Of a DNA stretch of 64,000 bases, positions 14,918 to 42,263 are shown piece after piece. How positions within the stretch are numbered: the stretch's first letter is position 1; the number at the start of each line of letters is the position of its first letter. Under the pieces are notes generated by a model. It was given only the letters and a program-made list of their open reading frames with translations, had not been told where the DNA came from and searched no databases. The stretch comes from Berberis thunbergii (lineage: Eukaryota > Streptophyta > Magnoliopsida > Ranunculales > Berberidaceae), in assembly GCA_003290165.1 (NCBI GenBank), contig QNQO01000512.1, forward strand, positions 62,001 through 126,000. The letters run 5' to 3'. The position numbers were made by a program, and so were the translations under genes.

Positions 14918-15345
14918 CACTACACTACAAATGCTTATTCATAGCATTCCAAAAACGCTATTGTAGGATATCATAGCGTTTTAGTAAACGCTGTGTCTGC
15001 CAGAGCTATAATAGGTACTATATTATTTATAGCATTTTAGAAACGTTATTGTAAGTAGACCATTTATAGCGTTTTTCCTGTGCTATTGTTTAGCTTGTAA
15101 TAACGTTTTAAAAATGCTTTGGTTAAACTTGTAATAGCGTTTAAAAAATGTTATTGTTTAGCTTGTGACAACACTTAAGAAATGCTATTGTCTAGTTACC
15201 AATAGCATTTCTGAAATGCTATTGTCTTCCCTCACGTAGCATTTAACAAATGCTATTGTATTAGTTTCTTTAGCGTTTCTCAAATCCATTTTTTTTCTAT
15301 AGCACTCATCTAGTGCTATTAAATGACTTTTATAACACTGATTTC
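14918..15345 (+). repeat. left CACTA terminus and subterminal repeats
   Basis: At least ten diverged copies in both orientations of a 10-12 bp motif, for example AAAACGCTATTG, ATAGCGTTTT, AAATGCTATTG. The stretch CTGCCAGAGCTATAATAGGTAC (about 14999-15020) and TAGCACTCATCTAGTGCTAT (about 15299-15318) recur in reverse complement at the right end of the second CACTA element, which proves common descent. Confidence 0.85.
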
Positions 15346-17880
15346 TTTAACCATAGAAGATAATATTGCATATATTATATGTAAAGCATCCAAATGATAA
15401 AAAAAAAAGATATTAATCATCTCATAAACATAAGAACTACCATCACGATTTGAATACAATACGATAAAAATATTATCTCAATGACAACATTTGTCTCAAA
15501 AGTACTACAATATATCTCAATGAAAATTGATTTCTTCACTCCCACCATTACATGAATTTGACATAAAGTTGTTGGGCAGTCTCATACTTGGCACCGTGGT
15601 GATTGTAGAAACAATAATCCCTTATTGAGGTCAATAAAAGTACTTATAAAGCACAATTCAGGCACCTACAAAATCAAATTTAGAAGAGTTTAAAACTTGA
15701 AATCCCCAAATCTCTTGCACGTCCTGTTACTGTACCAAGAACTGCCAATCTACATTCTCTCCACTGTTGCCTACTGATCACATCCTTTGCAACTGAAACT
15801 CCAACTTGTTACTTTAAGCTGCCAAACTTCAATTACATCCATCGGCCAATCATCCATATCAACATGACAAAGCATGAGCATAAGTTCAATTGCATTAATG
15901 TATATCCATTACCTTAGCATAAAATTCAAGCTAGAATGTTCAAGCATTATAACTGAGGTATCCATCAGCTTGGGTTAAAAAGCAAAGAAAATCACTATAT
16001 GTAAGCGGAGTACCAAACCTGATGATAGCCACTAGCCCAGTTATTTCCTTTGCCACCTCCATGATAAATGATAAGCATTAGATGAATTTCAAACTAGGTT
16101 CACAATCAATACCATTCAATATATATGTTTTTGTTTCTTCACCTGTAAATCTAGAGACATTGGTGCTTCAATCTCTTCCATTTTGGCAGCTAGAGATAAA
16201 CAAGCCACAACTAACAATTTCATCATCCAAGCTTTATCTCTCTATATAGACAACAAACGTATAAAACAAATGTAAGTCAAACACTCAAATGAAATTGACC
16301 CTGCATTATAAATCACAGAACATTAAAGGTAATGAAGTCATGCATAATGAACTTACAAGAAGTTCATAAGCTGAAAGGATTCTATCCAAGTAATTGATTG
16401 ATAGATAGGCACTCATTGGACCAAAACTATAATGGGCATGAAACACCAAAGAGCACAACATATTAATCTATCTTTCAATTCAAAGAGGTTTTTTACTAGT
16501 CATGGACACTGTTCACAGTTTGTATGTCCTACGTGGCGTTGTTACTCTCTTTATGTTTATGGCAACAAATTAAAACTAAAAGCTCTCCCCCGCATACAAA
16601 CTCAACTCAGCGTGCTTTTCCTTCTCTCACGCATGTGAGCTCTCAAATCCTCTCTCAGATTTATCTCATCTTGCAAATCCTCTCACAAGTCTCTTTTTCA
16701 TCTTGCAAATCCCTCTCTCATGTAACAAATCTCGCTCTCACGCAGCACATCTCTCTCACGCAGCAAATCCCTCTTGCAAAACCCTTCTCCATCATCTTGT
16801 AAATCTCTGTAAGTAACTCTCTTTCTCTCTCTCTCGCAACTCTCTTGCTTTCTCTCACGCACAATGGGTTGATTTGGTTGTTTTCTTCTCTCTTTCATCG
16901 CTAGGGCACAATGGATTGATTGGGTATGTAATTTTTGTAACTTCCTTCATGGGTTTTGTGATTTAGATCGTTTTCTACAATGGGTTTCCATAAAAATTGA
17001 AGCTTTGGTAGCTTGGTTGGCTAATCAGGATATTAGGTTTGTGTTCTAGAGGTGGGAGGGGGTATGAAGGGGAACAATCCATTTGGGTTATTGGGGGTAA
17101 TTGAATTGGTAAGTTCTATTTATTTGATGAATTGGGTTTTGATAGTAATTGAAAAAAATTTGATTACGATTTTGGTGTTGTTCTAGAGGAGATTGGTAAG
17201 GACTTTTGGGGTTTGTTTAGGATTGTGGGGGAAATAAAATGGATCAGTTGAAATTAAGGTTAAGGTAGTAGATTGTAGACTGATGAGACGTGTAAGGATA
17301 AAAATTGAAGTTTTAGTTGGGTTTTCATAATCCTGTGGAAATTGAGAAGTGATGTACAAAGTGTTTAGTTTGTGGATTAAACTTGATTATATTGAGTGTA
17401 ATAAAAATGTTTGTTGTTTAGTGATGGTTTGATAGATTTTCTTGAATATGGATATCTTGCTATTTGCTATTCTTCAATCTATTGTTATTTAATCTTCTTT
17501 TCACCCCTAATCTATAAATTTAGGATTTTTTTTCTTCGAATTATTTTGGTTGAAAATCTACTCTACATTGTCTCACGGTTCTATATCTCACACAGCTCTC
17601 CACTGTTGTTGTAATTTTTGTTGGTGAGTTGAATTTCTACGGTTAGGGTTATGTTTATGTTATTATTTTGGTTACTGGGTGTTGAATTTCTATTAAAAGT
17701 GCCACCATCACATTACTGCTGGAATGTTGAAAGGAAAATTTGATTTCTTTTCTTGCTTGGGTTTGATATTTTAGCAGATAATGCCAAGTTCTTTCTGTTA
17801 AAAACTGATTTTTGTTTCTTATACTCAGATTTTGACATATATGTACTTAATTAACATTTTTTTTCCTTTTTTTTCTTCAG
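15346..17880. other. CACTA 1 cargo without recognised coding sequence
   Basis: No domain was recognised. About 16600-16870 is rich in CTCTCT runs and looks like the 5' leader of a captured gene, possibly that of the BolA gene that follows on the same strand. About 15550-16100 has splice-like features on the minus strand but I cannot identify a protein. Confidence 0.4.
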
Positions 17881-18203
17881 GAAATGATTGATACATCTGG
17901 AGCGTAAGATCATTGACATACACTATCTGGTTTCAATTCTAAAGGAATTTAGCCAAACCTTTTACGCTTTTCTATTCTTTTAGTTGAAAGAAAACATTTT
18001 TGTTTCTCAGGTGCTGTGCGAGCTTTGAAATTGCTATAGTGTCTGAACAATTCGAAGGGAAGAGGCTATTGGAGAGGCACATGATGGTGAACTTTGCATT
18101 GGCAGAGGAGATGAAGGAGATCCATGCTCTCTCCATCTCAAAAGCTTTGACACCTGCCCAGTGGAAGCAACAACAGGAGTCCAACACCCAGACGACTTCG
18201 TAA
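17881..18203 (+). pseudogene. captured BolA-like gene fragment (C-terminal two exons)
   Basis: Exon 17881-17903 encodes EMIDTSGA with a GT donor, and exon 18011-18203 continues in frame as CCASFEIAIVSEQFEGKRLL, then MKEIHALSISKALTP, to a stop at 18201-18203. BolA-like proteins partner monothiol glutaredoxins in iron-sulphur handling; the segment with RLLERH and the nearby conserved histidine is the helix-turn-helix part of the fold. The N-terminal exon of about 20-25 residues is missing, so no full protein can be made. The intron is still present, so capture was of genomic DNA. The remaining frame has no stop, which points to a fairly recent capture. A short BolA2-type member is the likely parent. 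Confidence 0.85.
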
Positions 18204-18603
18204 ATCATCTTATTTTATTACTTAAAACTATTGTAGTGATCCGTAACTACTAGAAGTATGAAAGTTTATAGGAAAAATTACAACTTCCCCTGCTTTGTGC
18301 TAATAATTCCTAACTTGGATCATGCTCATCAAGGATAAATTAAGTTGCTATGGATAATATATTGGATCATGATCAAACCAATATATTTTTTTTAAATTGT
18401 CAGACAATTTCTCTTGATAGTTACTGTTTTATTTTGTTTTAATGATCTCTCTTGTTTATCTATCACTAGAGTATGCCTAGTGCTGTTGGCATTCCATATA
18501 ATTTTAAACCCAAAATTTCTCTTGATTGACTCATTTTTGTGAAATGATTGTTTAAGATTTGCAGAGCAAGGAGTGGGATCAGTGGGGAGGAAGAGAAAAA
18601 GCA

Positions 18604-19035
18604 ATGGATGTGACCCAGTTGTAGAGACGTTTAGTTGATTACATAGACTCGTTGTTTCGTGAGGTTGGTTTTTGTTGTTTTGGGTTTTGTTTTGCATGTT
18701 TTGGGTTGGTTTGATGATGGGGTTTTTGTTGTTTTGGCGTGAAGGGGTTTCTTGATGATCAGTTTACACAACTTCAACAACTCCTGGATGAGAGTAACCA
18801 AGATTTTGTGTTTGAAGTTGTGTCTATTTTCTTTGAAGATTCTGAGAAGCTAATCAATGAGATGGCCAGAGCTTTGTAAGTTTCAATTTCCCATTTTTCT
18901 CTTTTCATTGCGTTTGTTCTTTGGTTCTAGGTTGAGTTTAGATTCTATGTTTTGTTTCTCTATAGGGATCAAAAGATTGTAGACTTCAAAAAGGTTGATG
19001 CCCATGTCCACCAATTGAAGGGCAGCAGCTTCAGG
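18604..19035 (+). pseudogene. captured histidine phosphotransfer (AHP) gene fragment
   Basis: Exon 1 (18604-18663) starts MDVTQL, has a TAG at codon 7 and continues VDYIDSLFRE. Exon 2 (18745-18875) reads [18 protein letters not shown] and then [16 protein letters not shown]. Exon 3 (18966-19035) reads DQKIVDFKKVDAHVHQLKGS, including the HQLKGS box with the histidine that accepts phosphate in plant AHPs. These proteins relay phosphate from cytokinin receptor kinases to response regulators. The 3' exons are missing after SSFR, where a GT donor remains. With the nonsense codon and the truncation it is non-functional. Introns keep GT-AG borders. It lies 400 bp after the BolA piece on the same strand, and both probably came in separately because the parent genes are unrelated. 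Confidence 0.9.
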
Positions 19036-19399
19036 TAATGGTATTTCTTTCATTTTCCTAATTTTCCTCATCCCCAAATGATGATTGAATATAGTTTTTA
19101 GGAACTATTATTATTCTGAATTTGAGATGAAATCCACAAATTACAACTAAAATGTTGGGTCATTTTCATTGCAATTTTGGTTAATGAAATGGAAGAGGAG
19201 AATGTGAATTGTTAGGAAGAAAAAAATCGATTCTTGAAAATTATGCAAGTGTTTTAAGAAATTGAAATAAAACCTCAAATGTGAGTATCTAAATAGTTGT
19301 GAAGGTATGATGTAATCTGCAATAGTGCCAACGGCACGGGTATACACTGGTCCTCAACATAAGCAAGAGTACATTGAGAAACCACCTTTTGTTCATAGC

Positions 19400-19535
19400 G
19401 GTTTCATGTATTTCATTTCCCGCTTTTGTTCATAGCCTTTTTTTAAATTAAAATATTATTAAAACTAGGGTTTTTCATAACATAAGTATAAAAACGCTAT
19501 TATCAAATGTTATTAATACGCAATTGTGGTGTAGT
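19400..19535. repeat. internal CACTA right-terminus-like sequence
   Basis: The run CATAACATAAGTATAAAAACG, then CTATTATCAAATGTTATTAA and TACGCAATTGTGGTGTAGT, matches the outer right end at 23960-24029 (CATAGCACTAAGCATAAAAA ... TTGTGGTGTAGTG) but is followed by CG instead of G. It is therefore a second right end inside the element. It separates the BolA and AHP cargo from the NAT cargo. Either an element was nested here or two CACTA copies became joined. Confidence 0.7.
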
Positions 19536-21545
19536 CGTGGAGGATATGATTAGCTAAACAATTTGCACTAACACTCGAATCCCAGGCCATGTATTAAAAC
19601 ACATAAATCCCTTCCTATATCACTTGCATCGGACCTAAATTACACCTACAAAACATAAAAATATGTTGAAAATTTTCAGTACTTAACACTTTCGTATAGA
19701 CTATTGGTGTTACTAAACAAATATGTCAAACAGACCTAATTAAAGGAGTAATAGTTTAGACTAAACAACTATCTCACATTGTGCTACCTCCAAAAGTTTT
19801 GAGTCAACTTAGCTTAAATTTTCTAAACAAATATGACAACTATATGCCACACACATTGTAAAAAGACAGATTTTACAGTAAGATTGTGTATTATATAATG
19901 AGATGATAGCACACATATGTGCCTGACTCATCCATACATACGTCTAAACATGCATCTACGTACACATTCAAATGAAAAGACTATCATTAAAAGCAATACC
20001 ACTACACATTGCTGTCTAGCACGACTAGTGCTTTTACCCCTGAGCCTTGTAACAGGAAATGACAATAATTCAATTTCTGTATCAAACAGACCTAAGTACA
20101 CACATCTACCACAATTAACACAACATTCAAATAAGATGGACAAAAACACATTTTGTAAGTAGTGCATATTCATTTCTGATAGTAAAGTGTTGCCAACAGT
20201 TTTGAGTCAGACCTGCATATAAATTTGTGCAATGCTGACAATAAAACAACTAAGACTCAAAAATCTTGCAGGAAAGTAACCCTATATACAACAAAAAGTT
20301 AATAACTAACTCATGCTATTCAGATTCATGAAACTAACAAAGAAATCAAAAAACGATAACATAGTGAATTTCATGCTTAAACACATAAATGTTGACTAGA
20401 GAAAATTACCAAGACTTGTCGACTAATGTTCCTAGTGCATACACTTGAGAAGAAGTGACATCCATAAAAATTGTTCTTATAATCTGCCAAAGAGAGTTGA
20501 ATCAAATACAAAAATCTTTCAAAATTCAAGTCAATTTTTGAACATGCATCACTTACAAGTACAAAAAAAAATGGCAAACAAACCATGCATTTACCTCTCA
20601 ACTACTAAACTAAGCATAAATCAGCTTGAATCCAATAGTTTCTTCACTAGAAAAGCTTAAGGAAAGATCCAACCAAGTACCCAGTCAAACATATTCACCA
20701 GAAAGTTGTTTCAAAGAAAAATGAGATAAATTATAAGTCAACCTTGGATAAAAAACACAAATGTATGATCCCAGGATCCTTCACTCTCTGACATCAAAAC
20801 CAAGATCGAATTCAGAGCAGCACCAGAACTTACATTGAGGTTGATGGATAGTTCATACCCAGCTTCATTACCTGCAAAGCGACAGAAACATTCAAAGGTG
20901 TGAAACATACAAACTACATATGGGAAACACTAAGAAAAAACAATAAAACTAAGGAAACGATGAGAACGAATAAGGGAAATAGCAGAATTAGAATTAGAAT
21001 TAGTTAATGTTTCAATTATGAATTAAGAGTTTTATGCACATTTTTAGTTAACTATTTATTGCTTTGGTTTTTACATTTTCTAATTTTTGCTTTCATGATG
21101 ATAGTGTAATTTTGTTTAAGTATAGGAATTTTTTAACAAGGAACTAAACATAATTACGTACTTTCATCAAGTTTTTCGAACAAAATATAAATTCTATGAA
21201 AATATAAATATGTAGTAGATTTTCAAGGATCACCGAGATAAAACCGTATATATTTACACAATAATTACAATATTTACAGTTATAAACATCTGATCTAAAG
21301 TGCTCAGATGATTCCAATACATATGCCTATCGAGCATACTACAATAAATCAATGAAGAACCTTGGAGCATATGTTGTAGATAAAATTAATCTTACAGGAG
21401 TTAATTATGGAGCAATCTATAATCATAATTCTTTAAGTAGGTACATTTCTTGTTCTTGGCCTTTGGCGATGCCTGTCCAAAGCTTGGTTCATATAAGCAT
21501 CGTAACTAAGCTAATGCTCTCTTAACCTGCACATTGCATTTGATA
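19536..21545. other. CACTA 1 cargo, unassigned AT-rich DNA
   Basis: No convincing coding sequence, RNA gene or transposon end was found. A minus-strand open stretch near 20770-20880 (GNEAGYELSINLNVSSGAAL) may be an exon of an unidentified captured gene. Confidence 0.35.
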
Positions 21546-21741
21546 GAATCAATTTCAACAGAGCTACAGTGCACCAGTTTTATGCAAAATTTGCGGGATT
21601 AATTATAACCAGTAGTTTTGAAGGTGGCAAACAGATAGTGAATTCTGATGAAGATGTCAAGAAGAGCAAAACTTGGGTTATTATGATGCAGACTGTGCAA
21701 GCTCAAAATATCAAATGTATTCTCTTGTTTCGAGTAAAGTA
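21546..21741 (+). pseudogene. unidentified exon-like coding piece in CACTA 1
   Basis: One frame stays open for more than 60 codons with protein-like composition (FNRATVHQFYAKFAGLIITS, then NSDEDVKKSKTWVIMMQTVQ). It is preceded by a splice-acceptor-like TTTGATAG. I do not recognise the family. It lies on the strand opposite to the NAT transporter exons that flank it on the right, so it is probably a separate capture. Confidence 0.45.
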
Positions 21742-21951
21742 ATCAAAGGTCTGGGAAACCACAGTTCCCCTTCCCCACTGGAGGTTCGAACAAAAAATAA
21801 ATGTAATTCTTATGATGCAACATTCAATGAAGCTAACATGCATCTATCTGTCTCTCTAAAAAAGTTAGTATCATAATTATGGAATACAAATTCATAGAGA
21901 ATGAATGAGCAAGCCTTACATAGAATCATACAAAGTTCTCTATTTACTTAC

Positions 21952-22768
21952 ATTTCCACCTCCCATCTGAGGAACAAGAGCTGTGGGGATAATAAGCATG
22001 GTACCGAGCAACATTAGGTAATATTGAAAACCAAGTTGTATAGCTTCCTCTGCATACGTATAACATTTATTAATAATGGTATTAAAATTTTGTAATGAAA
22101 CTCTAGCAAGGTGTAATTCATAGAGAATCTCAAAAGGTTTTCATCAACTCAAAGTGGGCTACAACAAAAATACAGTTCCTATTGAGTACAAGGCTTGGAA
22201 TTCCACCAAACATGTGGAAATTGATGAACAGAGTAAACCATATAGAAATAGAAAAAAAAATCTCCATGAATGGAAAGAGGGAGAGAGACCTCAAAGGAGT
22301 TCCAGCAAAGAACATGAAACTCACAAGGCTCTTTCTATTCCTCTACCCTACCATAATGCTAAGATTATATCCAAATGGGTAGTCCATAAAAAAAAAGGGA
22401 AAAACTGCATTGTCTCAAATTTAACAACAAATGCAGTAAAAGATGCAAAAAGAACCAAGATTAGTCCATTAGGAAAGAAAAGAAAACAACTCTTGCTTTA
22501 GAAATGAGAGATATCAATGAAAACAATCACACATCAAGTGTTCCTGAAACTGGAAAACCCCAACTAAAAAACATATAATGCAACATTTTATCTTGAATCA
22601 GAAGTAGATACAATATAAGTGATTAAAAAGGGCATAAACAACAAAAGAAGATAAAGAAACTAATGGAGGAGGACTAGTGATGCAGTAAGCAATGTTGGGT
22701 AGCTGATCCTTCACTGGATGTGGCTGCAACTCATCCTGTTTAGGGGTTATAACTGCTCCTCATGCCAT
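21952..22768 (-). pseudogene. captured nucleobase-ascorbate transporter (NAT) fragment, first two coding exons
   Basis: On the minus strand exon 1 (22664-22768) reads MA, then TGA, then GAVITPKQDELQPHPVKDQL and PNIAYCITSPPP. Exon 2 (21952-22049) reads EAIQLGFQYYLMLLGTMLII and then PTALVPQMGGGN, with an AG acceptor (TGCAG) and a GTAAG donor. This is the N-terminal cytosolic segment and first membrane span of plant NAT/UapA-type permeases. The rest of the roughly 520-residue protein is absent. The TGA replaces a glycine codon at position 3. Sequence up to about 23790 probably includes the parent gene's 5' leader. This capture is opposite in orientation to the BolA and AHP pieces. Confidence 0.85.
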
Positions 22769-23900
22769 TTTCTTTCTCTTCTTCTCTACTAATCAAAAAG
22801 ATCCCCAACAATCAAATCAAATGCAAACACCAAGTATACCACACATCACAAAATCAAAATTTCAAATCACCTCCACAGATAACTATACAAGAAAAAAAAA
22901 TCCTAAATCTCAAGTAAAATCGAAAAACCGCAACTAAAATTTTCAAGTTAAAGTGGGTTTGAGGTTAGTATCGAGTCCAGATACCTAAAAAAGCATAGAA
23001 ATGAAGTTATCTAGAGTAATGCTACAAAAAACTGAAAATGTAAAACACCCATTTAACTTTCTTACAAAACCTAAATCACAACACAAGCATTACAAATTTT
23101 TGAGAGTTGATAAACAAGAAAAATAGTGATACTAGTTGTGGGTTTACAACCAAAAACCCATTTGAAAAGCAAAGAATGAAAGCACAGAGGATCCCAATGT
23201 TCTCTCATTCATATAATCAAATACAAAATCACCAAGATTAAAATTTTTCATGGAATGAGCATAATTAAACCTTAATTACATATAAAAGACTCACTTTTTA
23301 TCTAAAGGACTCGATTTTAACCCAAAGGAATCAAATATAACCTAAAGGCCTCAACTTTAAGAAATAAACTAAAGTCAATTGAAGAATTACAACAACAAAT
23401 AGAACCTCAGAAGAAGGTCGAGTTCATCAAGAAGCCCGGATTCGACGTAGATCGGATAGCTACAGTCCCCCCAAATCGATATTAATGGTGGTTGCAACCC
23501 TAGAGTTGGTCTTACTTGAGAAGGACTGCTCCATCATTTGAGCTGAACTAGCCGAGATTTTGGATCAAATTCGATCCAAATTCACAACATGTCTTGCAAT
23601 TCTATTCAATCGAGTACAACCAGATGAGAGGAAATTCGATCAAAGTGTGCAGGATGGAAGAGAAAGTTTGGAACTTTTGAATGCACCATTGGGAAACAGA
23701 GAGGGGAGAAGAATTGTTGTTGTTGAAGAAGATGAGAGAGATGTGAAGAAGAAATGAGGGTTTTCTTTGTACAGAGAGAGGGACTTGGTACAACTCGCCC
23801 CTTGTATTTTTCTTCCTTGATTTCTATGTGTGCCTTTCGTTAAAAAGAAGGGGACGGGTTTTCTAAAATTTGAAGTGAAATAGAGGCGGTTCCTTTTTTT
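22769..23900 (-). other. probable upstream and leader DNA of the captured NAT gene
   Basis: On the minus strand, reading from about 23790 toward the NAT start, the DNA has the look of a 5' leader with CT-rich pieces, including a GAA/TTC-rich stretch at about 23690-23760. No other gene is visible. A 12-T run at about 23895-23908 precedes the CACTA subterminal repeats. Confidence 0.35.
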
Positions 23901-24183
23901 TTTTTTAAGTTCCCGCTCCTATTCTATAGCGTTTTATTATTTGTAATGCAATTAAAATTTGGTTGTTCATAGCACTAAGCATAAAAATACTATATTTAAA
24001 TGCTATTAATAAACACTTGTGGTGTAGTGTCAGTTGGGTCGCCTCTAACCCGACCATTGGAGCTTTTTCAATGGCGGCTGGTTGCATCACCATGGAGAGA
24101 ACAAGAACTCGTAACTCCAATGGTCTAGATCACTTGTCCAGCGTATCAAACGGCCTGGAAAATCTTCAAAATTCTACTGGATG

Positions 24184-30236: not shown

Positions 30237-30268
30237 GTAGAATGATTTCACCAACCTTGCCAAACCTT

Positions 30269-30280: not shown

Positions 30281-30282
30281 AC

Positions 30283-30720
30283 TGTCACGGGCATTCTTTT
30301 CATAAGTACTTCCCGTGCGACACTAACAAATTTTGCCCCAACTTATCGAAGAAAGTTAGTCAGCCTTGCCCACGAAAGACTTACTTAGACTTTGGAAAGC
30401 TAAGCGAGCTAAGAACACACAAGAAAACTTAAGAGAACTAGAACTTGTATTGCTTGAATTCTCTGATGTGACTACAACAAATGAGACCTTAGCCTATTTA
30501 TACAACTCCACCTCCTCAATGGACGGTGGTGATCAATTTGACCTAATGGTCTACAATGAACTTCTACACACTTCTACACACTTCCTTAGAAATATCTAAG
30601 GATTAGAATCCTATGGAATTTTATGGAAGGTTCTAGAGAACTCTCTAGAACAATGTGGAATATTCTACATTATTTACATTTGCTAACCTCACTTGGCTAG
30701 GCAAGAAGATAGTTGTGACA
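30283..30720 (-). repeat. 5' LTR of the chromovirus
   Basis: 438 bp with TG...CA ends, aligned over its whole length to 25695-26134. Confidence 0.95.
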
Positions 30721-31036: not shown

Positions 31037-31059
31037 CACTACACCACACGTCCACTTTT

Positions 31060-32042
31060 ATAGCATTTAATTAACGCGTTTTTTACACATTTTCTATGAA
31101 AAGTTAAGTTGCATTACTATTGAGTCTAAAAACGCTATCGCTATGGCAGGATTATAAAATGCTGAGCGCTCAGCCAAATATTTGAGGTAGCGTCACTTTT
31201 CTTCTCTCCCTCAAACCTAAATTAAGACAAAAATTTCAAGTTTAACATCAAAATCTTTTCTTTCATTTCGATTTCGATTCCCCTCTCAACACACCCAAAT
31301 CCCATCTTTCATCTCTCCTTTCGTTTCATTTCTTCAATGGCGACTGAACAAGTTAGAACGAAGCAAGAGATAAATTCCCTCTTGTTTCCTCTCCCTCTGC
31401 TCACTATCTAATTGGAGAAGGAGAGGACAAGAGGTTGAGAAATTGCTAGGTTTAGGTTAGCAACAGTGAAATTTGGGGCTCCAATTTGGTCAAGTGACAT
31501 GTAGAAGAGAAACAATAATCTATGCTGCACCCGAAACACTCCTAGAAACAGAAGAAGCAGCAGCAGAGAAGGTCTCTGAAGTTCCCCAGTCCATTGAAGA
31601 AGAAACATAGGTTTCCATTCTACCCTTCACTTCTATTCTTTCTTGAATTATGTTTACTTTATAGTTGATTCCACATTATCTCACATTTCATCGAATGTAT
31701 CATCTTAAATTCTGTCTAGGTTTTCATTGTGAATAACTTCGTCTCCCATTCAAGCAACATATGATTAGCCAATTGGGTGTTTGAAGCAAAATATTGTTTT
31801 TTTTTTGTCACATTTCCTCCAATTGGTATCATAAATTCTGTCACATTTTTGCATTATTATTTGATTTTCTACGACCACATTAAGCCCAAAGAGGTTTAAA
31901 TCAACATTTCGTAGTTTTCCCTATTTTGGCTCATTGGGTATTGAAATGAAAATATAGTTTCGATTACATTTTATCCATTGGGTATCTGCTTCATTTTATG
32001 TACCTTATATTGTTGAAATTTTGTTGTCATTTTTATTGAATG
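31060..32042 (+). other. CACTA 2 left part, possible captured leader
   Basis: After the terminus a few AAAACGCTAT-type repeats occur (31060-31170). About 31200-31340 looks like a CT-rich 5' leader ending in an ATG at 31337 (MATEQVRTKQEINSLL), which meets a stop after about 24 codons. I cannot identify it. Confidence 0.35.
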
Positions 32043-32156
32043 CAGAAGCTTCAAGTAGTGGTGAAGCCAATCGAGAAGCTCAGGCTTGTGTTGAAGTTTG
32101 TTTGGATAGAGAAGAACATCAGTCTTGCACTTGACTAGATTATATCGGGTCATGGA
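32043..32156 (+). pseudogene. captured fragment of plastid ribosomal protein PSRP3 (Ycf65-like)
   Basis: After an AG acceptor (32041-32045) the frame reads [20 protein letters not shown] and LALD, then a TAG, then IISGHG and a stop. The piece KFVWIEKNI with LALD is the signature of PSRP3/Ycf65, a small-subunit protein of plastid ribosomes. Only about 38 codons are present, with one nonsense codon inside, and the normal continuation (the PLSPYFFWPR region) is missing. Confidence 0.7.
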
Positions 32157-32271
32157 TAAAAACTTTTTCGTTGCCTTTTCTGAGTTTCATCATTGGAAGC
32201 CTACTCAATACTAGCTATTAACTTCATCTTCATATATGATGGTACTGATTTGATTTCTTTAATAACTATAG

Positions 32272-32431
32272 GTTTCTGAAAAAATTACCTATAATGGGCA
32301 TGAAATGCATGAATTTGTTATGAGGAAAACTTTTGCTTATATTAGTCAGAATGATCTCCGCATTGAAGAAATGACAGTGAGGGAAACCTTGGCTTTCTCT
32401 GCTAGATGTCAAGGTGTCGGGACTCAATATG
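32272..32431 (+). pseudogene. captured exon of a PDR-type ABCG transporter
   Basis: One exon between an AG acceptor (at 32270-32271) and a GT donor (32432-32433). It stays open and reads [16 protein letters not shown], then [11 protein letters not shown], then [19 protein letters not shown]. This is the segment after Walker A of the first nucleotide-binding domain of full-size plant ABCG (PDR) transporters, including the Q-loop glutamine in YISQND. The rest of the roughly 1400-residue protein is absent. It is an internal exon, so capture did not need a gene end. Confidence 0.9.
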
Positions 32432-34051
32432 GTAAGTCAAGAATGATCTATACATGTTGGATTACCTGTATTAAAGCTATTCCATTCTCATTCAAATTTC
32501 TTACTATATAAAGTATCACTGTTTGTGTATGTCCGTGTGTGGCTCTTCCTTAGAGCACCAATCATTTCAAGTTTGATAGTTGTCGTATATTATCTAAGCA
32601 TATTAAAAACAGAACAATGTACTATGTGTTTCCCAAAGAAAAAGACAGTGAGATGTTTTGAGTGTCAAAACCTGACAAAGTATGTCCACGGATGGTTATC
32701 GGTAACAAAATACAACTAAATCAACAGTGTGAATTACAAAAACCTTCTTTTTCAGCATTAACTACTTTTATTAATTTTTTATATGATGATATCTCTCATC
32801 AAGTTGTAGATGTCAGTGTAGATGAGACAGGCACAAGGTGAGATGAGACAAAGCAACGCGTTTCATCTCGAAGGCACATTTTCTAACCTTTTTCTTTTGG
32901 TAAAAATGTAAATTGTAGTTATCTATTACTTTTGTTCATTTGTTGTATTTTTCCCTAGTACATTTGTAAGTTTAGACTCTCGAGTAAATGCATTCAAAAT
33001 TCAAAATCTCCACTTCTCAAGTACTCACGCTTCAAATGGAAAGTGCATTTCTTTCTGTTTTTGTTGTTTTCACCCTTTCCCTCCTTAATATTCTTTTTTG
33101 TCTGGCATCTTAGTCTCTTCATGTTCAAATGTTATGAAACTTGCAAGTGTTTTGATGTTTTTTAGATAATAGAGAATCAGCTTTGTGACTTTATCTGATT
33201 AATAAATAGTAGTTACTTATTATGTAAGCTTATATGTTTAATAAGTATCCATTTCTTCCAAAAATGACATATCTAGAAAGGATTGTCAATTTTGAATGAA
33301 TGAAGTTCATTTATTTCCCAGATGCTTATTCTGAATAAAGATATGACTTTTCTTTTGCTTTTGTGCCGCTTGTTTTGGGTTTTGTTGTGATATGCCTTTT
33401 CTCATTCATGAAGTTAAATCTTCTGCTTGCATGGTAGATAATACATGTATGATATTTGATCTCAAATTAAAATTTTCATTCAATTGTAGTTCATTTTTTC
33501 TATGTGCTGAATATTGATAACTCATTTTGTGCACTATATACAGTTATAGAATGAAATTGCCTTGTATAAGGACTCATTTTTGCATATAGACTTGTTTATG
33601 TATATGAAACCCTTTCCATTTGCCTGGATACTTTTGGTTTAGTACTGTGTTCAGTTTGAGCTGTCATGCTCAGATGTCTTACATTCATAAGTTGTCATGT
33701 TATTTCATGCAAAGCAACCCAATATTGGATACTAAAGTTAAATATGAATAGTTTTTATTTTACATGGAAATTATGCGGGGTGTTTGGTCAATGACTTTTT
33801 ATTAACCTAAAATAGTTGCAACTTACAAAATGGAGTGTCCCTGTTACTCGAACATTTTGCTCTATTTCAATGCTTGTGCCTTGTTTTCACATTTTTTGCT
33901 CTATTTCAAATGCTCTGAGCTGTTAGAAATTGTAGGTCATGTTGTCGAGTTCAGGTACATATTGTTCCAAGATCTTTGTGTCCTAACTTTACCTAGCTTC
34001 TGAGTGTCTCATTAGGCATCTTTTTTTAGCAGTGCTGATTAGTATGGAAGT
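32432..34051. other. CACTA 2 cargo, AT-rich intron-like DNA
   Basis: T-rich DNA resembling introns, probably the intron downstream of the ABCG exon and the intron upstream of the Pumilio exon. No coding piece recognised. The point where one captured fragment changes to the next cannot be seen. Confidence 0.4.
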
Positions 34052-34353
34052 TGGTTCATTCAGCAAAAACTTGAGACAACCACATCGGAAGAGAAAATCA
34101 TGGTTTTCCTAGAGATCATGCCTGATGCTTTTACATTGATGACCGATGTCTTTGGAAATTATGTAATCTAGAAGGTATTTGTACTTTAATAATCCATCAG
34201 TTTTGAAATTGATTTTATGTTTATTCTGCTTGTTTGCGAATGGTATAACAATTGGAGTTCTGCTTCAGTTTTCTGAGCATTGAACCGTGTCGCACAGAAG
34301 GGAATTAGCAGACAAACTGAATGGGCATGTATTGGCTCTCAACCGTCAAATGT
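34052..34353 (+). pseudogene. captured Pumilio-family RNA-binding protein fragment (two exons)
   Basis: Exon 34052-34174 reads [20 protein letters not shown], then [21 protein letters not shown]. Exon 34269-34353 reads FSEH, TGA, TVSHRRELADKLNGHVLALN and RQMY. These are consecutive PUF repeats of the Pumilio homology domain: FIQQKLE and FGNYVIQK are RNA-facing signatures. Two nonsense codons fall at positions normally Gln and Gly. The intron between the exons is kept. The reading stops abruptly at RQMY, at the junction with another piece. Confidence 0.9.
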
Positions 34354-34491
34354 ATAGACTTTGCTGGAGAAACCTCAAAACAGTTCCAAGATAGCTACAA
34401 AAAAGCATTACTTTCGTCAAAAGATGACATGGCTACTCAGGAATATGCAGAATATGCACTACCTTACAGTAAAGCTGATGCAAATTCAAAG
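34354..34491 (+). pseudogene. unidentified exon joined to the Pumilio fragment
   Basis: Directly after the Pumilio piece a 46-codon open stretch reads DFAGETSKQFQDSYKKALLS, then YAEYALPYSKADANSK, and ends at a GT donor (34492). I do not recognise the family. There is no intron at the 34353/34354 border, so this is either a capture junction inside exons or a rearrangement. Confidence 0.5.
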
Positions 34492-35052
34492 GTTAGTCCT
34501 ATATTTTGCGAACCCTATGCTCCAAACATGTTTTGTTTTTATATAGCAAAATTTTCCCTTCACAAATTCTTAACCAGATTGCTAGTTCCATCTCAATATT
34601 CATCCATAACACATTAAAACTTAAAAGCTTCCTGGAATTTGATGGGAGGAGGCATGGTAATTTGCTTCACCTGATCTGTAATGGTAGAAGTATTATTCTT
34701 CGAGGTATTTTCTCATCAAATTTCTTTTTTTGATAAAGAATATGTTGTGTTCTCTTTTTACAACAAGAACACCAAATAAATCGTATTTCTTCAAGTTATA
34801 TACTCTAATGTTACACTTCTGTTTCTGACTATGTATCAAAGACACTATTTATACCCAAAAAAAAGTGTATCAGACAAGTATTGTGTCGGATACGCGTGTT
34901 GACACTCATAGATACTCCCATAAAAAACTCCATGCATGAATCATCAACGCGTCCACATTTCCATCACTCTTATGTATGATGCATGTTATTTATAAAGCAA
35001 CATTCATGACAATGCTGCGGTACATTATGACATGTGACATTTACAATTAAAT

Positions 35053-35152
35053 GCTCAAAACATAGAAAGCTCTCACTGCATGCATCACCATGATGGAAGC
35101 TGTGAATGGAGGAAAAGACCTTCATGTTTCTGTCACCGTGCCTTCTATTGAG
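35053..35152 (+). pseudogene. captured HMG-CoA reductase exon fragment
   Basis: The frame reads AQNIESSHC, then a 4-base duplication (ATGC at about 35080), then [20 protein letters not shown] and SIE before a GT donor (35153). This is part of the catalytic domain of HMG-CoA reductase, the committed enzyme of the mevalonate pathway. The extra 4 bases break the frame. Only about 33 codons are present. The donor position before the VGTVGGGT region agrees with a known plant HMGR intron as I recall it. Confidence 0.85.
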
Positions 35153-35727
35153 GTAAACTACTTCATTTCTTTGCATGTAGTCAGCAGAATCAGTTCTTAT
35201 TCTTACTTGATGCTTCTTCCTCATTTTCCGACAAAATTTAAGGTTCAGAGGATCAGTAGAACCCCAGTTATGAAATTCTAAATAGATACCAGAGAGATGC
35301 TGCACGCCAAGGAGTCAAATTAGAATAGGACTCATGATTGTCTAAAACTGTAGTTATATCACTCATTTACCCTCAAAACTAGGATAATTTTGGCTAGAAA
35401 CTTCTAGGGCTAATCAATATGTTGAGGATGTCATGCTCATTAAACTTGGATAATTTTGCCTTAATGAGCTTATATTACATTTACCCATGACATTACATAG
35501 ACACAAAATATGCTTTGTTTCCCTCTCTTTTCTCAATTGCCCATCTCAAGAGCAGAAGAAGAAGAAGAACCCATTTTTATTTGAATTGCTTTGCTTTTTC
35601 CCATCCCTTCCATTAAATTATGATTCCCATGGTTTATCCCTTTACTCTAGTTCACTTAGAGTTTTGATTTTTCTTTTCAGTGAAAAATGGTCTTTGAACT
35701 TGTAAAGTTTTGATTTTGGAATGAAAA

Positions 35728-35826
35728 ATGGGTACTGAAGATGACAACAAGAACGCCATTTCTCAAGAGCATGGCGAGGCTTCAACCAACACAGCAACAA
35801 CACCGACTGTTGTACCAAATCAAGAG
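35728..35826 (+). pseudogene. unidentified captured first coding exon
   Basis: A CT-rich leader (35490-35727) is followed by ATG and 33 open codons (MGTEDDNKNAISQEHGEAST ...) ending at a GT donor (35827). The leader, start and donor look like the 5' end of a real gene. The peptide is acidic and low in complexity; a transcription-factor N-terminus is possible, but I cannot assign it. Confidence 0.45.
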
Positions 35827-37145
35827 GTATTTCATATCTTTTGCATATATGATTAAATGGTTTTGTTTGATAAAGGTTGGTTTTTTAGTTTTCGAGTATC
35901 TGTGATTTAATCAATATAGGAATTCAGGGCTGTTTCTGTCATGGGGATTTCTCTGTTTGTTGTTTTCCAATTACATGTTGTGGGATTGTTTATGTTTGGA
36001 ACATTTTCTGCCCTTGGAGTTCTGGAGAGAAAAGACACCATCTAGGGTTGGGGGTTAGGGGAGTGAACTTTGTGGAAATTTGGTTTTAGATATATTTTCT
36101 ACAGTCATTTAGCACATACACACAGAAAACAGCAAGAAAGAAGAAGCAGCGTGTGAATGTTAGTTTGAAGTGTATTGTCTAGTTTTCTTACTTATTTCTA
36201 CTCTTGCGTTTAGTTTCTTTGACATGTCAACTTTGTAGATGAACTAGTAGTGTTAGTTTCATGATGGATGTCTTTATAGCATTACTTTTCCATAGCTGAT
36301 TCATTCATTCTAAAATGAGATTATGCTAATATGAAAAATGGTTTTGTTATTACTACAATATTGGTACAGCTATGTCAAAAATTTATTCCATAAATGAGAA
36401 AAATTATAATTTGTAATGCGTTAATAGGAAAAATAGGTTACTGAGCCTTTAATTTGAGGCAAATGCTTATATCATGCTTGCATTTGGGATTCACTTAAGG
36501 ATTTTTCCCATTTAATTGTGATTTGCAGCCTACTGAATCTTTTGTTTGTTTGTTTGTTTTTTTCCTATTTCTTTAATAAATATGTGCCTCTAGATAAGAA
36601 AATGAAAAATAAAGAAAGAGGAAAAGGTTATCATAAAGTAAATTTTTTTTTGGTGAAGTTTATGACATGTTTTCATTCAAGTGAAGGCGTATGAATCATT
36701 TTCTATCGCATAATGTTTTTGCTAAAATTCTGTAACCAAAACACCAAACTGTTAGGAGGTTACTGTGTGAGATGATTTTCACACAGATTCACACAAGCAT
36801 ACCAAGCACCGCCACACTGACTCCGCCAACAACACCCAAGGGCTTCCTAATGATAGTAAAATTGTGCAATCATAATTGATTACTAGTTTGTTACTCATCA
36901 AGGTATTTGTTTAGTAACAAAATTTCAGGCGAGAACTACATGTGTCCTAGTTACATCTTGTCACTTCTGTACTCTTATAAGATGAATACTACAAGTAAAT
37001 TTTGAACTGGGACTGGATGTTTACTATTTTGTAGTCAAGACCTTCACTAGAAATTTTTTTACCTAATAAATTTTATCTGAAATGCATGCTGAAAATTTAA
37101 ACAGGGAAATAAAATGATGTTCAAATTTGCTTTTATTGTGCAGAT
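35827..37145. other. CACTA 2 cargo, intron-like DNA
   Basis: AT-rich, no coding segment recognised; probably the first intron of the preceding gene and the leader or intron before PEX11 (acceptor GTGCAG at 37138-37143). Confidence 0.4.
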
Positions 37146-37163
37146 AAAATGAGGACTTTAGAT

Positions 37164-37337
37164 ATTTTTTTGCCAATGGTGTTATGGTCGAGTGGTTAGG
37201 GCTGTGTGGGTTTATCCCCCACGTCCTAGGTTCGAGACCCGTTGGCGGCATGGTTACTTTTTTATGGTGTTGACCTGTAGGTCGCACCTTGTTGATAGGT
37301 TATGGGATCCTATAAAAACCCAGCTCGCTTTCCAAAA
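37164..37337 (+). mobile_element. tRNA-derived SINE, copy 1
   Basis: The head has an A box (TGGTCGAGTGGTTAGGGC, 37185-37202) and a B box (GGTTCGAGACC, 37229-37239) like a polymerase III tRNA promoter. The body ends GTTATGGGATCCTATAAAAA then CCCAGCTCGCTTTCC, before an A run. It is flanked by an 18-bp duplication AAAATGAGGACTTTAGAT (37146-37163 and 37338-37355). A reverse-complement relative is at 62041-62172. It is not a functional tRNA gene: the acceptor stem does not pair and the sequence continues well past the tRNA-like part. Confidence 0.9.
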
Positions 37338-37340
37338 AAA

Positions 37341-38411
37341 ATGAGGACTTTAGATGCGACCAGAGCAGAGCTTGCTCTTTTGGTTTTGTATTTGAAGAAG
37401 GCTGAAGCAAGGGATATGATATGCATGACAATACACAATGGTTCGAAATTTGTAAGCAATGGAGAGCCTGGTACAATTTGCACCATGTTTGCAGTTTGCA
37501 TCATCAACTGCACTTGCAGTTTGTCAATGACTTGCATGCTCTTATAAGCCCACCTACCAAAGGAACACCACTTCCGATCGTTTTAACTGGAAAGGTACAA
37601 ATTTTTAGTACAGTGGTTGAATGTGCATGCTAGTTTCAATGCTTATCCTATGCAGGCCCTTAGTGTAATTTTATTTTTCAGTCCAAAAATGCGTTACCAT
37701 CAACTTGCTTGTTTCTGGATCAAATTGTGAGGCTGGGCAGAACTTGCATTTATAAGGTATTCACATTTCATTTCCTGGTTAGGTTATCGTTGTTTATTTG
37801 ATTTTTTTTCCCAGTAGTTGTCTACAAGAAACAATAGCGTTTATATTTCCATTTTATTTGTATTCAAGAACAAAGAACGTGCAGAGTTACTAGGCATGTT
37901 TCTAAATTGATAGGCTCCTTTGTTTGTACCCAATTGGTCGAGGTTTGTGTTACATTTTTCACTTTCCAGCACCATGAGAACATTGTTCTGTTTTAAGATA
38001 TCTAAATTAATAGGCATTTAGCTTGATCCAAGCTGTAGTCCCACTCCACACAATTCAAATAAAACTTTAAGTTCTGTATTTTTTTTCTTTATCAAGCTTG
38101 CGGAACTTAGGAGACTTTCTTTATCAATGAAAAAGTTAGGGGAGTTTAAGAACATTAATAAGTAAGAGGTATTGGAGTGTGCAATTTCTTTAAGAAGTTA
38201 ATCATATTGTTTTTCCCATGCTCTATGGTTCTTTCTAAGTATCTGTTTTTCTCTGTTCACAATGCAGAATGAGCAGTGTCATGGCAAGCTCAAACAGTCA
38301 AATGATAGAACACTAGCACTTGTAAAAAGTAGCAATGGATACAGTTTTGAAGTAGGCCTCCTTCAATTGGCTCCTAAGAAAGTCACACCTTGTGTTACAA
38401 GAATACATTGA
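37341..38411 (+). pseudogene. captured peroxisomal membrane protein PEX11 gene, nearly complete but broken
   Basis: The start ATG (37341) opens MRTLDATRAELALLVLYLKK and runs to NGSKFVSNGEPGT. A frame change near 37485 leads to FVNDLHALISPPTKGTPLPI (to 37594). Further exons are 37682-37756 (CLFLDQIVRLGRTCIYK), 37869-37895 (NKERAELLG), 38097-38162 (RRLSLSMKKLGE) and 38268-38411 (NEQCHGKLKQSNDRTLALVK, then GLLQLAPKKVTP). PEX11 proteins elongate peroxisomes before division. Introns are retained. Frameshifts and the loss of a central segment make it non-functional. A SINE landed exactly at the start codon. Confidence 0.9.
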
Positions 38412-38503
38412 TGTGTTATTAATATTTGTAATGCCACGAAGCTCAGAGTTGGTGACAGATGTTCAAGGAATCACGTGTCTGGTAGGAGTTTATCTCTTTT
38501 ACA

Positions 38504-39647
38504 TAGGGGTGGGCATCCCATCACGGGATCCCGTTCCCGTCCCGATCTCGTTCCGTCATGTCCCGATTTTTTCGGGTCTTAATGGGATTGAATAATTTCA
38601 TCCCGATCCCGTCCCGTCCTGATCTAGAATGGGATGGGATGGGATGAAGATTTTCAATCCCGCCAATCCCGTCCCGTCCCGAACTAATTTATTAATATTA
38701 ATTATTAATATTTTTATTTAATTATTTATTTTAGAATTGTGGATGCCCATACAAATGTACTGATGTATATAACATTTTTACTTTTTTAGCATCTCAATGA
38801 ATCTCTCATACATATCTCTAAATTTGTAATATTTCAGTTCTCACTTTCTCAGTTCTCCTCTCTCTGATAAAATATTGATTCGGTCATTCTTTAGTGTAAA
38901 GTGGGCGAAGGCTATACTTTATCATCAGATTCTCAAATCTACGAAGACAACAGTTCAACCAACAGTTAGGTATTGAGAATCTGAGCTCACACTGCAAGTA
39001 ACAAACACTGCCAGTTCCACTGAGCTTTAGGCATTTGCACAAATCTAGTAAAATTTCAAATTATGAATCTTTGAGCTTCTTACATGAAAGTATTAAACCA
39101 AGATTTTGAGTTTTTAATGTTTCTTTTGTAATAAGATGGTTTCCAGTAAACTTGAAAGCCAATAGAGCTTTTTAAAGATACTGAACAATAAATGAATAAA
39201 GACTGTGTCACTTGGCAAAAACTAAGATTTCTCCAATTATATTGTCTTTCCTTCAAATGATCTCTTCCTTTCATGCAACCATAATTATATTTTCATACTA
39301 TAAAAGGTTAAAATTGGGGATCTAGGGGCTAGCATGTGAAAAGTCTGAAAATAAAAAGAGATATTAGGATATGTGACAAATCATATCTTCAGCTCCTCAT
39401 ATTCTCTCAAGGTATTGTATTTGCTCAATTATCATCTTCTCAGACACGAGGGAATGGATGATCTTCTTGATTGGAAGAAAATGTATTCTCCATATTAGCA
39501 CGCTGATCCCGTCCCGTCCCGAACCCGTTTGGGATGGGACGAGGCCGGGATGAGGTTTTTCCCACCCCGTCCCATCCCGATCCCATATGAACGGGATGAG
39601 ATAAGGATGGATATATCTCGTCCCATCCCATCCCGTGCCCACCCCTA
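38504..39647. mobile_element. non-autonomous hAT element, 1144 bp
   Basis: The ends TAGGGGTGGGCAT and, reverse-complemented from the right, TAGGGGTGGGCAC are inverted copies. The element is flanked by an exact 8-bp duplication CTTTTACA (38496-38503, 39648-39655). Near both ends the sequence is packed with CCCGTCCCG / GGGATGGGAC repeats, which are probably transposase-binding subterminal repeats. No transposase coding sequence is present. Confidence 0.92.
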
Positions 39648-39896
39648 CTTTTACATGTTCGTTGTCATTATAATTGTTACCTCATTATGCTCTAAATTAT
39701 TCGAGTCAATACAGACTGGGGTACTGCCTTCATTCGTCCCCATTTGCGCAAGCATTTGCAGCAATGATAACTGCTATTCTTACAGGATCTCTTTATTATG
39801 TAGCTGCCTCTCCCGAAGGTAGATCCTTGAATTCCTTTCCTTGAATTGTTAAGTGCTTATTGATAAGAGTTTCATTTTTTCCCTCATTCTCAAAGG

Positions 39897-40034
39897 TACA
39901 TATCTCAAACAATGAAGTTAGGTGCATTTGGTATGCCAACGTATCGAACATTCTCTTTGGAGGAACTTGAAGCGGCTGCAAACAACTTCAATACATCATC
40001 TTTGTTGGGTGAAGGATCTCATGGCCAGTTATGA
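39897..40034 (+). pseudogene. captured LRR receptor-like kinase fragment
   Basis: The frame reads YISQTMKLGAFGMPTYRTFS, then LEELEAAANNFNTSSLLGEG and SHGQL, then a stop. FS-LEELE-A-NNF followed by GEG is the juxtamembrane region and start of the kinase domain of plant receptor-like kinases, most like the probably inactive LRR kinases of the At3g03770 type. Only about 45 codons are kept. Confidence 0.8.
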
Positions 40035-40063
40035 CATCTAGTATTGGGTGATGGAAGACCGTA

Positions 40064-40162
40064 CGGCTGGTGTTACTATTGCTGGCCCTTGTCGCTGTAC
40101 CATGGATGTTGTTGCCAAAGCCTTTTCTTTTGAAGAAACAACATCAAGAAGTACATCCTTGA
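40064..40162 (+). pseudogene. captured V-ATPase subunit a (VHA-a) exon fragment
   Basis: The frame reads [20 protein letters not shown], then [12 protein letters not shown] and a stop. The hydrophobic span ending [10 protein letters not shown] with KKQH is characteristic of the membrane domain of plant V-ATPase subunit a, a part of the proton channel. No other exon of this gene is visible. It lies only 30 bp after the kinase piece, so the two captures abut. Confidence 0.85.
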
Positions 40163-40319
40163 GCCAACATCAACAAATGAAGGAAGGGGAGAACAAAAAC
40201 AATGAGGTTGGAAACTGGAAAGGATAGTGACTCGATGTAATACTTTATCTTATTAATTACATTACTTTGCCTCCAGTCATGGAAATGTTTAAGTTTGGGA
40301 CATTTGGATTTTTATTTTC

Positions 40320-40581
40320 TAGAAATAAAACTTATAAGATGTTATAAAAAGTCATTTGATAGCACTTGATGAGTGCTATAGAAAAAAAAAGGGCCTTGAG
40401 AAACGCTATAGAAACTAGTACAACAGCATTGTTAAATGTTACGTGAGGGAAGACAAAAACGTTTTTTAAAACGCTATAAAAGATCAACTTACAATAGCGT
40501 TTTTAAAACGCTATAATAGACCCTGTATCTATTATAGCTCCGGCAGTCACAGTGTTATTAATGACCATTTTTCTTGTAGTG
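40320..40581 (-). repeat. right CACTA terminus and subterminal repeats of CACTA 2
   Basis: Several AAACGCTATA / AATAGCGTTT motifs in both orientations, the box TAGCACTTGATGAGTGCTAT (about 40361-40380) and CTATTATAGCTCCGGCAG (about 40531-40548), all reverse complements of sequences at the left end of CACTA 1. It ends TTTTTCTTGTAGTG. Confidence 0.85.
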
Positions 40582-40823: not shown

Positions 40824-41306
40824 GTTTGTATTCTTAAAACTAATGAAACACGAACATCTTAAAATTAAATTGAACTACTTTTAGATTTACAAATCAAGTG
40901 CTGTCCACAATTTTGTTGTGTCACATGAATCATTAGCATCCACGTACACCGTCCCATGTGTTTCATGGTGTTCAATTGACAGAATTGAGTACATTGTTTT
41001 TCAAGGGGACAAGATTCATCGAAGATATACGTCTCATTTGACTAATTTATAAAAGTTGAAATAGACAAATAACGACCCGGGCGTGTATATAAACCTACAA
41101 AACTTATTATTACACAAACTAATTGAACTTGCCGGGACTACACGTTTTGTTGCCCATTCTAGGGTCATGGTCAAATTCTTCAAACAATTTTATATACACA
41201 TTGATTCATCCTTTCTCTTTATCTATCTACTACTCTTTGCTTCTCCTTCCTTCCACTTGCAACTTGAAACTTGAAACTTGCTACTTTCTTCATTTTGTTG
41301 CAAACA
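40582..41306 (+). promoter_or_regulatory. upstream region of the synthase small-subunit locus, with TATA box
   Basis: A 33-T run lies at 40788-40820. A clear TATA box, TATATAAA, lies at 41086-41093, 214 bp before the first ATG, leaving a plausible leader of about 180 nt that is CT-rich (41205-41255). No transposon end was found between the CACTA terminus and the gene. The nearness of CACTA 2 (725 bp) could influence expression. Confidence 0.6.
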
Positions 41307-42263
41307 ATGGCATCTTCAGCCTTTGTTCATTACAATAACACCATTACAAGGTCAACCACCATCCAATCTTCCTCCTCTACAACCAAACTTAATGAGAAAC
41401 CTAATCAGCTCTCCATGTCCCCCAAACAATCTAAATGGGCCTCGATAAGTACTGATGTAGAGACCCATATTAAGAAGGCCCATAGCTGGACTCGAACCAG
41501 CGAGTATGTTTGAGCCGCTGCACCATCTCACCTTTGCTCCTCCAAGGAGTATGGCACCTGCCTTGTGTGTTTCAGCTTGTGAATTTGTTGGAGGGCAGAA
41601 AGAGCAAGCAATTCCAGCTGCTTCAGCACTTCACCTTATGCATGCAGCTGCATTCACTCATGAAAACCTCCCATTATCTGACCGGACTGTGTCTAGGCCC
41701 ATGATTGATCATGTTTATGGCCCAAACATCGAGCTTCTAACCGGTGACGGTATTTTACCTTTGGGATACGAATTATTGGCTAAATCTGCAGATTACCCTG
41801 CTTGTAATAGGGATAACGTTACCCGCGGCCTCTGAGAAAATTTTAAGGGTGATCATTGAAATAGCCCGTGCAACAGGCTCACAAGGGCTGGTTGATGGTA
41901 AGTACCGCCAAATCTCTGGTATGGAACTGGAATCTGACGGTGATATGGAATGGATCAATCATGTAACCATGAAAAAGGAAGGCGAGCTCTACGCATTGTG
42001 GTACTGCATGTGGGGCTATATTAGGAGGTGCTACCGACAAGGAGATTGAGATATTTAGAAGGTTCGGCTTTTACATAGGGATGATGCATGGGATGATATT
42101 GCATGCAACTGGAAATGCGGCACTTCCTTGGAACAAATGGTTGCAAGAGGTAGAAAGGTTTAGGTCTATGGCTTTCAAGGAACTTGAGAGCTTGGAAGAC
42201 AAAAATGTTGACGCAATTTCTAAACTGATGGATGAATGTTTTGTAAACGATGATATGTACTGA
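41307..42263 (+). pseudogene. geranyl/geranylgeranyl diphosphate synthase small subunit, three +1 frame breaks
   Basis: Three frames follow each other without overlap of content. The first opens MASSAFVHYNNTITRS, a serine/threonine-rich plastid transit-like N-terminus. Frame 2 holds FEPLHHLTFAPPRSMAPALC, the first CxxxC motif (CVSAC), then LHLMHAAAFTHENLPLSD and YGPNIELLTGDGILPLGYEL. Frame 3 has KILRVIIEIARATGSQGLVD. The last part, back in the first frame, has the second CxxxC (CGTAC), GGATDKEIEIFRRFGFYIG, and a stop at 42261-42263. The aspartate-rich motifs of active synthases are absent, as expected for the non-catalytic small subunit that binds and tunes the large subunit in plastids. Breaks lie near 41480 (extra C), 41825, and 41996 (extra T); each is a net +1. 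There are no in-frame stops otherwise. The intronless layout fits the family. It is either a young pseudogene or an intact gene with consensus errors. Confidence 0.85.

Follow-up and report, generated by a model that had tools for sequence, protein, structure and literature searches.

A Pack-CACTA element carrying pieces of seven named genes, and its sister element, in Berberis thunbergii

How do pieces of at least seven unrelated genes come to lie side by side in less than 10 kb of plant DNA? The question is raised by positions 31037 to 40581 of a 64,000-nucleotide stretch of Berberis thunbergii contig QNQO01000512.1 (the window), which a sequence-only reading had taken for a CACTA transposon loaded with captured gene parts. 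We analysed this segment, called E1, together with a second element of the same window, called E2. We consider it highly probable that E1 is an old non-autonomous CACTA element (a Pack-CACTA), that its family is marked by a 5' end with few and a 3' end with many subterminal repeats (the sparse and the dense end), that it was mobilised in trans and that it grew by capture from at least seven unrelated genes. Our literature search for earlier descriptions found none of this locus.

The borders of E1 carry inverted CACTA-type termini at 31037 and 40581, positions 40569-40581 being an exact CACTACAAGAAAA when read on the minus strand. Subterminal 8-mers were clustered at the ends, as in the CACTA superfamily: two were present in the left 300 bp, four in the right 300 bp and two in the intervening 8,945 bp, that is, a density about 30 times (left) and 60 times (right) that of the middle, for a motif set picked only after the ends had been seen. 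Comparison of the window with itself showed that the right end of E1 matches positions 14987-15337 reversed, which led to E2. Alignment of the left end of E1 with the sparse end of E2 gave a match of 65.9% over positions 1-123, and alignment of its right end with the dense end of E2 gave 78.4% over positions 76-280 of the 300 tested; neither score was reached by any of 500 dinucleotide shuffles. The pairing of sparse with sparse and of dense with dense ends is specific, because the scores of the cross comparisons were reached by 7 (left to dense) and 37 (right to sparse) of 500 shuffles. The end matches, the shuffles and the repeat clustering bear out the proposal that CACTA-type ends and subterminal repeats bound 31037 to 40581, and the suggested look for further copies that share the ends but not the cargo found one, E2, within the window, so that for this one copy the refuting condition set beforehand did not come true. 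The strongest argument for E1 as a single transposon is E2. By likeness to the soybean element Tgmt*, the sparse end would be the 5' end, in which case E1 would run along the plus strand and E2 along the minus strand.

Several observations weigh against the reading of E1 as a single mobile Pack-CACTA that grew by capture. Its own two 31-bp ends agree at 19 of 31 positions (9 of the first 13), and the trinucleotides that flank it, TGG and TGA, agree at two of the three bases of the expected 3-bp target duplication, as do those that flank E2 (TCT and TCA). No inner end relic above chance was present within E1, which gave weak matches only. The lack of any transposase family in whole-frame scans (six frames for E1) of the two elements speaks for the reading, but such scans are insensitive to broken genes. 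A two-of-three duplication is unusual and need not be disqualifying, because the target duplication is mismatched in 14 of the 339 Tpn1 elements described in PMC5105172. The imperfect duplication and the 19/31 end match of E1 would also be expected if the two CACTA ends came from separate insertions, if the gene fragments between them had piled up otherwise and if E1 had never moved as a unit, and E2 shows that several ends can share one stretch. We regard this alternative as improbable: like E2, E1 pairs a sparse with a dense end, properly inverted to each other, a third end above chance was not found inside it, and the two elements are alike in length (9.5 kb for E1 and 9.1 kb for E2). Without its two guests, a short interspersed nuclear element (SINE) and a hAT-like element, E1 measures about 8.2 kb.

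The seven genes named by the sequence-only reading (PSRP3, a PDR-type ABCG transporter, Pumilio, HMG-CoA reductase (HMGR), PEX11, an LRR receptor-like kinase and V-ATPase subunit a) were all supported by matches (Table 1). The PEX11 piece is no mere scrap: of 683 candidate proteins, 598 matched it at E<=1, the best at 7.9e-52, and its alignment to the Macleaya protein of 235 residues runs from residue 1 to residue 210, except for residues 46-63, which did not align; introns lie between the exons. Its top matches were from Macleaya cordata, followed by Tasmannia, Kingdonia and Papaver. In PDB the kinase piece matched weakly at best (0.039), so that its identification rests on the homologue search, in which 150 of 162 candidates matched at E<=1 (best 1.3e-31, next 3.1e-15), with 70-83% identity to 120 proteins among the matches listed; among them, Cocos precedes Ranunculus, Musa and Kingdonia. 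The taxa matched by the PEX11 and kinase pieces hint at, but do not prove, a host among the early-diverging eudicots. The best PDB match of the ABCG piece was the multidrug transporter CDR1 (9iuk), at 2.7e-5 over two stretches, the better of which alone scored 0.11; from its sequence, we take the piece to be of the plant PDR subtype. The upstream part of the HMGR piece is likewise presumed from its translation, and the translation of the first PSRP3 segment resembles, in our judgement, the N-terminus of that protein. In a Pfam scan of joined peptides, Pumilio alone (family PUF) passed its cut-off, whereas ABCG, HMGR, PEX11 and V-ATPase fell short of theirs; PSRP3 matched nothing but an unrelated family by chance, and no family matched the kinase piece. 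Short or broken pieces can score under Pfam cut-offs.

Exon-like pieces without a name are also present in E1, as had been noticed, in the number of three (B1/B2, C and D) and not two. The protein search with piece B returned two candidates, none at E<=10; piece C had no credible match in Pfam, the sole database tried for it, and piece D had none in PDB or Pfam. The cargo is genomic DNA, introns included, as the splice sites and the introns between the PEX11 exons confirm. Splice donors were found 3' of the ABCG, B1, B2, HMGR, D and V-ATPase pieces and of two PEX11 exons, and acceptors 5' of the ABCG and B2 pieces and of one PEX11 exon; direct reading added an acceptor each for Pumilio exon B, piece D and the kinase piece and a donor each for Pumilio exon A and piece C. 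The kinase piece and the first exons of PSRP3 and PEX11 had no donor at their 3' border. The pieces hold in-frame stops (PSRP3 and the Pumilio exons) and frame changes (HMGR and PEX11); E1 therefore codes no intact chimeric protein, and an intact chimeric gene was rejected. An Rfam search gave no matches and a search for tRNA genes found none.

E1 thus contains host gene DNA and, as far as whole-frame scans with their limited sensitivity show, no transposase, which is the composition of a Pack-TYPE element, and the ends, the seven gene matches and the splice sites uphold its description as a CACTA element of this kind with multiple captured, intron-bearing gene pieces. Multi-gene cargo is also common in maize Helitrons, one of which carries eight predicted gene fragments according to PMC3288121, and a Helitron carrying the CACTA ends, or sitting within them, might have gathered the cargo. 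We find this scarcely credible, since the CACTA ends sit just outside the cargo, whole-frame scans of E1 showed no Rep/helicase family, and a strict scan for a perfect GC-rich hairpin followed by a CTRRT 3' end gave 0 hits on either strand (three-base block shuffles gave a mean of 0.14 and a maximum of 1). The identification of E1 as a Helitron was rejected on the latter result, a 3' hairpin followed by CTRR(T) being present on neither strand.

Table 1. Positions of the elements E1 and E2 and of their parts in the window.
Feature	Position	Strand	Basis and remarks
E1, non-autonomous Pack-CACTA	31037..40581	+	9,545 bp including two guests, later in the simplest reading; ends and subterminal repeats
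E1 5' end (by analogy), sparse subterminal region	31037..31159	+	Starts CACTACACCACACGTC; 65.9% to E2 24029 down to 23903
PSRP3, probable first-exon part	31470..31604	+	Open frame; no database match of its own
PSRP3 (cS23) exon	32040..32165	+	In-frame stops; 5x8p 8.3e-10, 5mmj 1.8e-9
ABCG exon	32272..32431	+	AG acceptor and GT donor kept; 9iuk (CDR1) 2.7e-5
Pumilio exon A (matched stretch)	34004..34186	+	3q0q 2.6e-15; PF00806
Pumilio exon B, beyond an intron	34270..34354	+	PF00806, two stretches in joined peptide; translation
Unnamed exon-like piece B1	34345..34491	+	GT donor; open frame; no protein or Pfam match
Unnamed exon-like piece B2	34578..34704	+	AG acceptor and GT donor; no Pfam match
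HMG-CoA reductase exon piece	35044..35152	+	Frame change, GT donor kept; 8ecg 5e-5, 7uli 6.2e-5, over about 35075-35158
Unnamed first-exon-like piece C	35729..35827	+	Open frame, then GT donor; chance-level Pfam match
SINE at PEX11 start codon	37164..37340	+	Duplicated target AAATGAGGACTTTAGAT, direct repeat; A- and B-box-like motifs
PEX11 (11C/D type)	37341..38399	+	Introns, frame change, stops; homologue search and alignment
hAT-like non-autonomous element	38504..39647		1,144 bp; 12-bp terminal inverted repeat TAGGGGTGGGCA; 8-bp target duplication CTTTTACA
Unnamed exon-like piece D	39715..39818	+	AG acceptor and GT donor; no PDB or Pfam match
LRR receptor-like kinase (At3g03770 type) exon piece	39894..40031	+	Homologue search; PDB weak, 0.039
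V-ATPase subunit a exon piece	40061..40150	+	GT donor kept; 7uw9 2.9e-9; PF01496 (V_ATPase_I) 1.9e-6, below cut-off
E1 3' end (by analogy), dense subterminal repeats	40282..40581	+	Dense repeats and reverse complement of CACTACAAGAAAA; 78.4% to E2 dense end
E2, sister Pack-CACTA	14918..24029	-	Opposite orientation to E1; terminal inverted repeats 27/31; flanks TCT/TCA
E2 dense end (3' by analogy)	14918..15373	-	Self-comparison, end alignments
Cyclin piece in E2, two exons, probably cyclin D	16140..16425	-	PF00134 7.4e-5, 22.9 bits against a cut-off of 23; translation
BolA piece in E2	17880..18205	+	PF01722 6.2e-13, above cut-off
Histidine phosphotransfer protein (AHP) piece in E2	18606..19035	+	PF01627 0.0024, below cut-off; three exon translations
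Fossil inner copy of sparse end in E2	19402..19536	-	74% to outer end 24028-23895
E2 sparse end (5' by analogy)	23895..24029	-	End alignments

The structure of E2 bears on how such cargo accumulates. Its two 31-bp ends agree with each other at 27/31. The dense end is followed by three gene pieces, then by the inner sparse end in its decayed state, by a stretch of about 4.4 kb in which no family was recognised and lastly by the outer sparse end. The fossil inner end agrees with the outer one at 26/31 in the terminal 31 bp and has its terminal C altered. We take the cyclin piece to be of the D type and, from three consecutive exon translations, the histidine phosphotransfer piece to be of the AHP type; the cargo of E2 was searched with whole frames only, and further pieces may be present. 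Neighbouring compatible insertions have been proposed to become one element once their inner ends are lost or mutated, as described in PMC8903248 and PMC13317346, and E2 looks like a fused element, as this model predicts. A CACTA transposase coded elsewhere would move E1 in trans, and E1 would have grown as it took up genomic DNA, together with the introns, of at least seven unrelated genes at separate loci. The likeliest route of capture would be that sister elements inserted near one another again and again and that, once the inner ends had decayed, the outermost two moved everything between them; E2, with a fossil end between two outer ones, would be such an intermediate. Because E1 has no inner relic above chance, it is the kinship with E2 that suggests this route for E1. 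Afterwards, E1 would have decayed and taken in the SINE and the hAT-like element.

All seven named pieces of E1 read on the plus strand (sign test, p = 0.016, two-sided). Whole-frame queries of the minus strand gave no PDB match at E<=1 in three frames and, in Pfam, FliL alone (0.25), under its cut-off. The same kind of query detected four of the seven plus-strand genes in PDB and one of the seven in Pfam, and a short minus-strand piece may therefore have escaped; recognisable minus-strand cargo in E1 was rejected on these scans of limited sensitivity. The statement that all pieces lie on one strand stands for the seven named ones, and the minus-strand scan, insensitive as it was, gave no credible match.

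A bias of orientation in capture, which had been suggested from E1, was not borne out, since E2 carries pieces on both strands, the cyclin piece with the polarity of the element and the BolA and AHP pieces against it; 8 of the 10 recognised pieces of E1 and E2 together are in sense (p = 0.11), and for this reason we do not accept the bias. A rule by which only captures in sense with the 5' end of the element are kept, sense exons being removed by splicing without harm and antisense ones contributing to the silencing of the parent genes, would agree with the seven of seven sense pieces of E1 (p = 0.016) and with the soybean captured exons that are spliced as cassette exons in the account of PMC1947982. 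The two antisense pieces of E2, with the resulting 8 of 10, argue against such a rule, as does a grapevine case described in PMC2528002, apparently from the CACTA family Cactavine-5, in which a captured piece faces the opposite way, and we judge the rule very unlikely. We find it more doubtful still that capture itself uses sense-strand material, for example when unspliced host transcripts serve as the template on which a broken element is repaired, the antisense pieces of E2 having then arrived through fusion with a neighbour; in that case the exons of E1, with their introns, would all have been gathered in sense.

Two guests that were absent from the earlier account are nested in E1. The SINE is of the tRNA type, and a part of 37 bp is found again at 62043-62079 (89% alike). 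The hAT-like element has short terminal inverted repeats and a perfect 8-bp target duplication, with CTTTTACA on both sides, as is characteristic of hAT elements. The simplest reading is that both arrived after capture and that E1 is old; alternatively, they may have inserted prior to capture.

A Ty3/gypsy-type retrotransposon with a chromodomain lies between E2 and E1 (25687-30720), its end repeats having been found 89% alike. To the right of E1 is a broken gene at 41306-42270 (wider limits read by eye), of which positions 41554-41832 match the small subunit of geranyl diphosphate synthase in PDB (3qkc, 1.3e-30); Pfam gave 0 families in three frames of this broken prenyl synthase. A direct pair at 7400-8423 and 13117-14132, 86% alike, is likely to represent the repeats of another retrotransposon, and a network of 66-87% repeats, some of them inverted, extends over 43500-60500 and recurs in 1-1660. 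The segments 4405-4717 (81%) and 24410-24795 (76%) are self-complementary and resemble fold-back elements or miniature inverted-repeat transposable elements. Pfam scans of one plus-strand frame each of 1-14916 and 41000-55999 gave 0 families each.

Within 26 kb there are two Pack-CACTAs of one family, each loaded with pieces of several genes; their cargo differs, and one of them retains a fossil inner end. The pair is a concrete test case for growth by fusion of neighbours and for any rule of cargo orientation. Gene annotation would be misled here: the PEX11, BolA and AHP copies look like transposon cargo and not like working genes.

E1 is a new, cargo-rich member of a type already known, the Pack-CACTA. 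Comparison with Tgm-Express1 of the soybean wp allele (PMC1947982) showed that both are CACTA elements that consist for the most part of fragments of unrelated host genes, with exons and introns; as described there, Tgm-Express1 holds five fragments in 5.7 kb and is transcribed into spliced chimeric RNAs, whereas E1 holds seven named and three unnamed pieces in 9.5 kb, is heavily decayed and is known from sequence alone. Like the Tpn1 family of the Japanese morning glory (PMC5105172; mean length given as 7.1 kb), E1 is a non-autonomous CACTA element whose interior is replaced by host sequence, although the host is a different species and the likeness is one of description, not of end alignment. 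The account of soybean Tgmt* in PMC2613891 gives it imperfect 13-bp terminal inverted repeats, a 3-bp duplication and subterminal repeats that are unevenly shared between the ends, with 4 at the left and 24 at the right; in repeats and asymmetry it is like E1 and E2, but unlike E1 it measures 20.5 kb, codes its own transposase and has a clean duplication. On wheat chromosome 3B, 140 CACTA-mediated capture events are reported in PMC4290129. The cargo count of E1, seven named genes plus the unnamed pieces, is at the high end for a Pack-CACTA, and we claim no record. The Pack-CACTA and other Pack-TYPE elements of Arabidopsis, rice and maize, as presented in PMC8903248, share with E1 the CACTA ends, the lack of transposase and the coding DNA of several loci; compared with these, the relic of an inner end is directly visible in E2.

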